A stretch of DNA of 38,622 bases from Bacteroidota bacterium (GTDB lineage: Bacteria; Bacteroidota; Bacteroidia; 2-12-FULL-35-15), in assembly GCA_023251835.1 (NCBI GenBank), contig JAHEXZ010000051.1, forward strand, positions 1 to 38,622, given 5' to 3'. A program made the translations under genes and the position numbers. The notes under the pieces are model-generated. The model was not told the DNA's origin. It saw nothing but the letters and a program-made list of their open reading frames with translations, and did not search any database. Every line of letters begins with the position of its first letter. The first letter of the stretch is position 1. Of the stretch, positions 11,468-13,567 are shown in pieces.

Positions 11468-12820
11468 TTATGAAAATTGAGCTTCTGCCTGATATATTTT
11501 CCGCGTTTTATCCGTAATCTTAAACCGTTCATCAATTCTGAGTCCTACCACCCATATAATTTTACCGGATGAGGTAATCAACCAGGTATTTTCTTTCTGG
11601 TAAAGTGATAATTTATTATCAATAAAAAAATCGCTCAACTTTTTTTTTCCTTTCATGCCTAAAGGATAAAATGCGTCCCCCTTCCGCCATTTTCGTACTT
11701 CTAATGGAAATTGAAGTTTTTCGAAATCCAACATAGCTATTGAGTTAGTAGTTGATACCCGATAGCTATCGGGTTGGTAGTTGGTAGTTGGTAGCGTTTG
11801 AAATTTTAGTCTAAGTTTATCTGTTAATAGTTCTGTTTGTTCTTTACTGATTTTAAATTCGGATACTTTTTTTATTTTTTCACTTGTCAGCTTCTGAATG
11901 ATTAATGTTTCCCTGTCTTTTATTAGTCGATGTGTGGCGGAGAAAAACTGCTTTCCGGGTTCTCCATCAAGCCCGGTTATAATTTCTTCAATTGTACTTG
12001 TGTTAAATTGATAAGGCTTTAGAAATTCATATAAATATGTATTTAATGGAAAAAGTTTTTTTAGCGAACGTATAGAAATTGTTATACCTTCTTTTTCGGA
12101 TTTTACAATTGTGTTACGCTTATTTTCGATTTCATTTCTGTAAACAGATTCTACTTCGTATAAATGTCTAATGGTATCACCTGCAGTTTTTTCAAAATTC
12201 GGATTTAATTCTTTCAAGACTGGAATAATATGGTGACGGATTTTATTTCGTGTATATTTATCGGAAATGTTGCTGCTGTCTTCCCGGTAATTTAGTTTAT
12301 ACTTTTGAGCATAAGTTTGAATTTCTTTTTTTGTGGCAAATAGCATTGGGTGTATAATAAAACCTTGTTTAGGCAATATGCCATGTAAGCCTGAAATACC
12401 GGTTCCTCTTATTAAATTAATAAAAAGTGTTTCAACAGAATCATCAAGATGATGGGCTGTTGCTATATAATTATAATTATACTGTTGTCTTATTTCTTCA
12501 AACCAGCGATAACGTAGTTCGCGTGCGGCCATCTGAATGGACAATTTATTCTTTTTAGCATAAACATTGGTTTTAAACAGTGTATTATAAAAAGGCACAT
12601 TGTAGCTTGTTGCAAGTGCTTCAACAAACTCTTTATCTTTATTACTTTCTTCACCGCGCAATTGAAAGTTGCAGTGCGCAATTCCAAATGTCAATTTTGA
12701 TTTATAAAATAAATCACACATCACAACGGAATCAATACCCCCGCTTACGGCCAGCAGAAGCCGGTCATTCAGATTAAAAAATTTTTCTTTTTTTATATGG
12801 TTTACGAATGATGAAAGCAC
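11468..12820 (-). CDS. tilS: tRNA(Ile)-lysidine synthase TilS with a repeat-encoded insertion
   Basis: A 450-residue PP-loop ATPase. The SGGIDS pyrophosphate-binding motif is at residues 26-31, and AHHLDDSVETLFINLIRGTGISGLHGI is the family signature. The C-terminal TilS domain (FYPLGMKGKKKLSDFFID) is present. TilS attaches lysine to C34 of the AUA-reading tRNA-Ile, an essential step that changes its specificity from AUG to AUA. Residues about 344-360, between the middle and C-terminal domains, are encoded by an 18-bp palindrome with flanking CTACCAA repeats. They read NYQPDSYRVS within a Thr/Asn-rich stretch, just before the conserved LDFEKLQFPLEVRKW. The insertion keeps the frame. Confidence 0.93.
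   Translation of the reverse strand: MLSSFVNHIKKEKFFNLNDRLLLAVSGGIDSVVMCDLFYKSKLTFGIAHCNFQLRGEESNKDKEFVEALATSYNVPFYNTLFKTNVYAKKNKLSIQMAARELRYRWFEEIRQQYNYNYIATAHHLDDSVETLFINLIRGTGISGLHGILPKQGFIIHPMLFATKKEIQTYAQKYKLNYREDSSNISDKYTRNKIRHHIIPVLKELNPNFEKTAGDTIRHLYEVESVYRNEIENKRNTIVKSEKEGITISIRSLKKLFPLNTYLYEFLKPYQFNTSTIEEIITGLDGEPGKQFFSATHRLIKDRETLIIQKLTSEKIKKVSEFKISKEQTELLTDKLRLKFQTLPTTNYQPDSYRVSTTNSIAMLDFEKLQFPLEVRKWRKGDAFYPLGMKGKKKLSDFFIDNKLSLYQKENTWLITSSGKIIWVVGLRIDERFKITDKTRKIYQAEAQFS
11757..11774. repeat. 18-bp perfect palindrome, copy 2, inside tilS
   Basis: Identical to 8676-8693. On the coding strand of tilS it is preceded by two CTACCAA units and followed by a related CAACTACTAAC stretch, so the whole insertion is roughly 45-50 bp. 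It is read as codons without breaking the frame, in an interdomain linker. Confidence 0.9.
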
Positions 12821-13063
12821 CGGTTGTTCTATTATATTTAATAACTGATGTTACGTAATGCTAATCTAACTGGCCATTAATGGCATATTCTGTTGTTGCG
12901 TTGTTTAAGACAGTTTTGGCTACAAATATACTGTTTCGCTCAGTTTTGGCAACAACGTTCATTCCTAAAATTGTGAATTGGTATGTGCTTCATTTGGTTA
13001 AGATATATTGCAAGCTACGTAGTACTTTGTATACATTTTGCACGGTGGCATTAATATCCTGGA

Positions 13064-13226
13064 TATTTCGGTGCTCTGCACCTGTTTATAGATGTCGCTA
13101 TTTTATTTATCTACAAATATTTTGCGGCTCTGCCGCCCTGAAGTTATTAGGTAATGTAGCGGCAGAGCCGCGAAATATTTGTAGATTTTACGATTTTATG
13201 ATTTTAAGGTGCATCGCACCGAAATA
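13064..13226. repeat. Nested inverted repeat with 28-nt inner arms
   Basis: The inner arms 13109-13136 and 13159-13186 pair at 27 of 28 positions around a 22-nt loop. The outer arms 13064-13083 and 13207-13226 pair at 18 of 20. Each arm itself contains a small hairpin: GGTGC..TGCACC in the outer arms and GCGGC..GCCGC in the inner arms. The result is a compound cruciform-like structure with GC-rich tips in an AT-rich surround. Confidence 0.88.
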
Positions 13227-13239
13227 CCTACACATCAAT

Positions 13240-13278
13240 TTTTGCGTAACAGCAGTTAATAACTGATGTTACGCAAAA
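13240..13278. repeat. 39-bp near-perfect palindrome
   Basis: The arms 13240-13257 and 13261-13278 match at 17 of 18 positions around AAT. The outer part, TTTTGCGTAAC / GTTACGCAAAA, is perfect. Its right arm contains the second copy of the 18-bp direct repeat found at 12838. Confidence 0.88.
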
Positions 13279-13314
13279 TTTATATCTAATTCAGAATATC
13301 TCGATATTTCCACC

Positions 13315-13396
13315 TGTCATTTCGAACGCAGTGAGAAATCTTGTCAATCAATTGCAAAGATTTCTCTTCCTGCATTCAGCAGGATTCGAAATGACA
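13315..13396. repeat. 82-bp hairpin element (TGTCATTTCGAA type)
   Basis: The outer arms TGTCATTTCGAA and TTCGAAATGACA (13315-13326 / 13385-13396) are perfect. The inner arms GAGAAATCTT and AAGATTTCTC (13333-13342 / 13357-13366) are also perfect. The TGTCATTTCGA..GAGAAATC form is one I recall as a dispersed intergenic repeat in Bacteroidota genomes. Confidence 0.85.
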
Positions 13397-13567
13397 ATGA
13401 TAGTGATTATGAATTATTTAAAGCTGTCACTTTTATTGTCTTTTTGAGAAAATTACCCTTCTCTCTTTATCAATTCTCTTGTCCATTACAAGTATAAAAG
13501 TCTATCATTTTTAAATCTTTTTCTTTGCGTAACATGACGTATTAAGTTAGATTTAGCACAAATTTAA

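Follow-up and report, generated by a model that had tools for sequence, protein, structure and literature searches.

Two MITEs with ends matching those of NF049921-family insertion sequences lie between tilS and pabB in a Bacteroidota genome

Structure of the tilS-pabB block

The window, that is, the whole stretch of 38,622 nucleotides that was analysed, contains a long gene-free block between tilS and a pabB-like gene. The block consists of two adjacent MITEs, A and B, the first of which hosts a separate hairpin repeat, with three repeat families (A, B and a REP-like palindrome) stacked in one place. The features are as follows (strand is given for genes only).

11468-12820, minus strand: tilS, flanking host gene (PF01171, PF11734)
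12838-12844: left target duplication TTAATAA of A, identical to the heptamer at 13256-13262
12845-13255: MITE A (411 bp) with the ends CTGATGTTACGTAA / CTGCTGTTACGCAA, diverged and of low copy number in this genome
13062-13228: REP-like nested palindrome within A, an independent repeat family (first hairpin of the sequence-only reading)
13237-13281: right end of A, TTAATAA and left end of B, head to head (second hairpin of that reading)
13256-13262: TTAATAA, at once the right target copy of A and the left flank of B
13263-13538: MITE B, 276 bp, ends CTGATGTTACGCAAAA / GTCATGTTACGCAAAG (right end, reverse complement)
13315-13396: internal TGTCATTTCGAA palindrome of B (third hairpin of that reading)
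13539-13545: right flank of B, GTATTAA, a 5/7 match to TTAATAA
13568-14956, minus strand: pabB-like chorismate-binding enzyme, flanking host gene (PF00425)

The hairpins and the direct repeat of the sequence-only reading are real, and all were found at essentially the positions that it gave. The 28-nt arms of the first hairpin (13109-13136 and 13159-13186, 96% complementary) are enclosed by an outer pair, 13064-13083 and 13207-13226; the second corresponds to a 22-nt inverted pair, 13237-13258 and 13260-13281; the third is built of the pairs 13315-13326/13385-13396 and 13333-13348/13351-13366. The direct repeat, previously given as 18 bp, covers 21 nt (12838-12858 vs. 13256-13276, 95%) and is explained as the left ends of A and B together with the target. 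The structures exceed chance expectation: A and B fold far more stably than shuffled sequences, and the motif combining end and target is present 40 times in the genome, compared with 0-1 for the reversed control. One further inverted relation, absent from the earlier description, links 13237-13277 with 13524-13564 and thus places the real right end of B at about 13538.

However, the three hairpins had been taken for the mobile units, whereas the true units are 12845-13255 and 13263-13538. The first hairpin is an independent repeat, as proposed, but in the block it is not free-standing and sits inside A; the second is not an element at all, being the junction where the right end of A faces the left end of B; the third forms the middle part of B and is not an element of its own. 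The general idea of serial insertion of non-autonomous elements fares better, as it agrees with the TTAATAA targets, with the independent palindrome in A and with the recurrence of B at 41 places; the boundaries of the units have to be redrawn.

Both A and B are short, have terminal inverted repeats and contain no transposase gene. A has a duplicated target, the perfect TTAATAA on both sides, and no second full-length copy in this genome; partial relatives of its own parts occur at C152:3709, C134:5963-6155 and C22:214. A is probably a younger insertion than B, having landed in the left target copy of B. No Pfam family matches the sole long ORF in the elements (12880-13266, 128 aa). A also contains a short imperfect tandem repeat (TGTTTNNGNCAGTTTTGGCNACAA) at 12902-12925 and 12932-12955.

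Copies of B, target sites and distribution

When the genome was searched with the whole gap, the region from about 13256 to 13545 recurred as one unit at 41 places, the window included. The extent of B (276 bp) was set by aligning the flanks of the copies, which are mostly 93-97% identical (median pairwise identity 96%), some of them being cut off at contig ends. The TGTCATTTCGAA palindrome is present in the aligned copies, and the right end is usually CTCATGTTACGCAAAG or CTGATGTTACGCAAAG. Exact target duplications of 6-7 bp flank 29 of the 35 full copies. Among 36 extracted rows, one of them (L055) being another element that has the same ends, the duplication is exact over 7 bp in 26 and over 6 bp in four (30/36), whereas random re-pairing of left and right flanks yields 2.9 duplications on average and never more than 12. 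The duplicated target has a palindromic consensus, TTA(A/T)TAA (TTAWTAA). Cases such as TTATTAT, TTAGGAT and, in Methylobacter, TTAGTTT demonstrate that all seven bases are part of the duplication. After removal of the element and one duplication, only one of 34 rejoined targets falls within an ORF that is 120 aa or longer, and thus the insertions are mostly intergenic. The copy of B in the window has no intact target duplication, the right one being decayed or rearranged.

These data bear on the possibility that A and B form a single composite transposon moving jointly between its outer ends. The two elements abut, have matching ends and share TTAATAA. However, a perfect TTAATAA duplication surrounds A alone, B occurs without A at about 40 other places, and the flanks on the outer sides differ (TTAATAA vs. 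GTATTAA). A composite transposon is therefore very unlikely.

The genes pabB and tilS are adjacent in 18 congeners, where the gap varies from 13 to 774 bp with a median of about 97 bp. The gap in the window is 747 bp, of which 46 bp remain once A, B and one duplication for each element are subtracted by hand; hence the long gene-free block was made by insertions. The congener with a gap of about 774 bp (G026, locus L264) has a long degenerate TTTGAAGAA-type repeat array there, unrelated to A and B. The tilS-pabB block has no DNA-level match in plasmids or phages.

It had also been suggested that the block may be transcribed as structured RNA. A functional structured RNA or a regulatory region (small RNA, attenuator, terminator) between pabB and tilS would agree with the very stable folds (z = -6.8 for B and -9.5 for A, relative to dinucleotide shuffles), with one terminator-like site and with the substitution pattern of B, 3.4% at paired vs. 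6.5% at unpaired positions. On the other hand, the strong folding of A and B is explained by the DNA being palindromic. The block has no Rfam match at its gathering score, and the matches to miRNA models below that score were rejected as hairpin artefacts. No convincing covariation was seen among the copies of B, half of the few double-sided changes coming from a row that is no B copy; promoter-like and terminator-like sites occur at the level of shuffled sequences; and almost all relatives have a far shorter pabB-tilS gap. A function of this kind is thus hardly credible. We found no reason to assign a host function to A or B, and the nest that they form is ordinary mobile-element debris.

The 13-mer CTGATGTTACGCA at the element ends occurs 51 times in this genome, compared with 0-2 times in each of 35 congeners, so the burst of these ends is species-specific. 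Very probably, B was amplified recently in this species. The ends are also abundant, around unrelated interiors, in two genomes from other families of the same class of Bacteroidota (G093 and G101). When 84,980 species genomes were scanned with the motif TTANTAACTGATGTTACGCA, at least 112 loci were found, whereas an estimated 2-7 would be expected by chance from base composition. By record title, the matches listed include Gammaproteobacteria (methanotrophs, Beggiatoaceae, Psychromonas), Bacteroidota, Campylobacterota, Chloroflexota, Latescibacterota and others. Single matches in a phylum could be due to chance or to contamination of metagenome bins; paired ends with matching flanks were seen in many of the positive groups.

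A candidate parent transposase

Comparison of the sequences indicates that the 13-bp ends of A and B match those of a little-described transposase family spread across many bacterial phyla. In a Neisseriaceae locus (L135), a DDE transposase is encoded between such ends, which are 1070 bp apart and are each flanked by TTATTAA. The protein matches Pfam DDE_5, and its best NCBIfam match is NF049921, 'transpos_IS701_2'; this copy is partly masked by N and scores 217 bits, under the cut-off of 250 bits. The cut-off is exceeded by other members (379.6 and 295.1 bits). The former score belongs to Methylobacter tundripaludum SV96, which has three 1105-bp IS copies with exactly CTGATGTTACGCA ends. The same genome contains numerous MITEs; 12 of them, 104-368 bp long, were retrieved with the 13-bp ends, these ends being all that they have in common with the IS, and 11 of the 12 have exact 7-bp duplications. 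A MITE of this end type in SV96 (L343, C1:390003-391926) is split by DNA encoding a transposase-like protein of 464 aa. A complete Bacteroidota genome of the same class as ours (G340) encodes an intact 360-aa version of the transposase between the same ends. Seven named plasmid IS from Polaromonas, Acinetobacter, Thiothrix, Moraxella and cyanobacteria have the same 13 bp or variants differing in 1-2 bases. Thus NF049921 IS (e.g. those of SV96 and Polaromonas pPNAP01) resemble A and B in the CTGATGTTACGCA end and in the 7-bp TTAWTAA-type duplication. They differ in encoding a transposase of about 350 aa, whereas the MITEs have the ends only and encode nothing. No description of the end sequence was found in a literature search.

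These IS are presumably the source of the transposase acting on A and B. The sequence-only reading had proposed a search for elements with the same ends plus a transposase; such elements exist in other genomes, but the enzyme is of the DDE type and is absent from the assembly of this genome. Very probably, to judge from the ends and duplications, A and B are two MITEs moved in trans by an NF049921-type DDE transposase, with a palindrome stacked in A. The transposase would recognise the 13-bp end and insert the elements into AT-rich intergenic TTAWTAA sites, duplicating 7 bp. A would have received its REP-like palindrome separately, and the hairpins would simply be structures that the elements carry along.

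In this genome, a draft assembly in which absence is uncertain, the search for NF049921 gave nothing above 20 bits, so mobilisation in trans is, for this genome, something that we infer from other ones. The driving transposase may have been lost, may be unassembled or may have been present only transiently. It was not found in the assemblies of G093 and G101 either, though these are rich in the ends. A coresident parental IS, which is a usual rather than a strictly defining feature of MITEs, was therefore not found here; an autonomous IS with the same ends and duplication length is known from elsewhere, a genome of the same class among them.

Several other candidates were considered. In this genome, a transposase end beside a terminal inverted repeat (TIR) at C149:38325 belongs to another IS inserted nearby, the other copies of which have no TIR. 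Four contig ends (C149:38474, C137:43600, C20:7 and C166:95529; L081-L084) stop inside the same IS, which has the putative C-terminal peptide PIEKYTEGFKENQIRRLKRQAKNLGLQVVEV and in one copy lies 20-30 bp from a CTGATGTTACGCA end. Among the PF01609 transposases of this genome (C4, C81, C24), only that on C4 is NF049921-like, and it lacks matching ends. Inspection of the ORFs between the end pairs of L217 (1.6 kb) and L124 (1.9 kb) revealed no recognisable transposase.

The safest statement about classification is that the parent belongs to an IS4/IS701-related subgroup, NF049921. Its members are about 1.1 kb long (1.07-1.12 kb) and, like the MITEs, produce duplications of 7 bp, sometimes 6 or 8; the complete Y-2-R-3-E-6-K signature is present in all 10 transposases of the group that were checked. 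The family name given to the transposase by NCBI points to IS701. However, that family as published has 4-bp duplications, a length of 1400-1550 bp and an incomplete YREK motif (PMC2266710), and the NF049921 IS differ from this definition in all three respects. The ISPepr1 subgroup of IS4, with 7-8 bp duplications, 5'-CT ends, AT-rich targets, YREK and a length of 1500-1600 bp (PMC2266710), is similar in the first four of these features but not in the length (about 1.1 kb in the NF049921 IS) or in the homology of the transposase; with IS4-type NCBIfam models, the parent transposase reaches no more than 116 bits, below their cut-offs. ISAba11, an IS701-like element of Acinetobacter, has a related transposase and the end core TTACGCA in common with the NF049921 IS. 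It differs in protein sequence (24% identity) and in its ends, TAGGACTTACGCA; the YREK motif was not found in it, and its direct repeat is reported as 5 bp (PMC7885321) vs. 7 bp. The NF049921 IS thus lie outside the ISAba11 group by transposase similarity, ends and duplication length. A parallel for the MITEs is MITEAba12, also short and non-autonomous, with the ends and duplication length of an IS, but its parent is ISAba12, which is coresident, and its duplications are 9 bp (PMC6382973).

Palindromes within the elements and related repeats

The palindrome in A has the appearance of a REP sequence, being GC-tipped and nested and having several solo copies. Copies without the A/B-type ends were found on contigs C116, C65, C2, C99, C114 and C46, and further partial matches in the genome are 70-86% identical. 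Given these copies and the 41 places occupied by B, the sequence-only reading was not refuted by its own criterion, a lack of further copies of any unit in the genome.

That reading named a REP-associated tyrosine transposase as a possible driver. The hairpins would then form a REP/BIME array, the block being a landing site for REP sequences. Palindrome 13062-13228 has the required appearance, and the genome contains three Y1 transposase genes (on C124, C81 and C33). However, this accounts for that palindrome only. Terminal inverted repeats, 7-bp duplications and ends matching those of IS, all present in A and B, are lacking in Y1 elements and fit the DDE family NF049921; for A and B as a whole, a RAYT driver is ruled out by the target duplications. 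Moreover, the RAYT-like genes at C124:18142 and C81:19417 (L282, L283) are flanked by their own, different palindromes (GACTCCGGCCGGAGTC-type arrays and AGCGTAGCGTCCCGCTACGCT), none of the tested motifs occurs near the gene on C33, and none of the three genes is flanked by the palindrome of A. A REP array is thus an unlikely account of the block. The inner palindrome resembles REP/BIME sequences and differs from them in being a passenger of A, with no cognate RAYT identified among the three.

Under mobilisation by an NF049921-type transposase, palindromes would travel as cargo. One MITE is found both with a AAGCCCCAGAGGGGC...GCCCCTCTGGGGCTT palindrome (C43:5320-5573) and without it (C53:4845-4960); this candidate filled/empty pair could reflect either insertion of the palindrome or its precise loss. 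Of 30 independent element clusters with these ends, 14 contain an internal inverted repeat that is perfect over 12 bp or more, compared with one of 150 neighbouring control segments. This suggests that MITEs with these ends may often carry or accept REP-like palindromes. A tentative extension is that unrelated REP-like hairpins are preferentially accepted or carried by NF049921-type MITEs, which would then be a palindrome vehicle spanning phyla.

Two repeat types described earlier come from overlapping hosts. The TAACTGA direct repeats are heptamer arrays of Beggiatoaceae, cyanobacteria and Bacteroidetes (PMC4679880). TAACTGA coincides with the sequence formed where the TTAWTAA target meets the element end CTGATG, and the host ranges overlap; in the loci examined, no TAACTGA arrays were found at the element ends. 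One such array lies directly upstream of an ATG in a Pyrinomonadaceae MAG (JAJAZE010000123.1, L129:3395), as in Beggiatoaceae (PMC4679880). The MITE in hupL of Thiomargarita nelsonii is abundant and 205 bp long, and its authors did not find its parent IS (PMC4853749). Thiomargarita also carries the present end family (L150, L179).

With the MITE explanation, the window no longer calls for a regulatory or RNA account. The label 'IS701' in annotations covers a subgroup that differs in length, ends and duplication. A widespread set of MITEs, undescribed in the literature searched, is supplied with a presumed parent transposase and with a search motif, TTANTAACTGATGTTACGCA, and many repeats between genes of Bacteroidota, methanotrophs and giant sulfur bacteria are explained by these MITEs. 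If they indeed act as palindrome vehicles, one transposase family would disperse many otherwise separate palindrome families.
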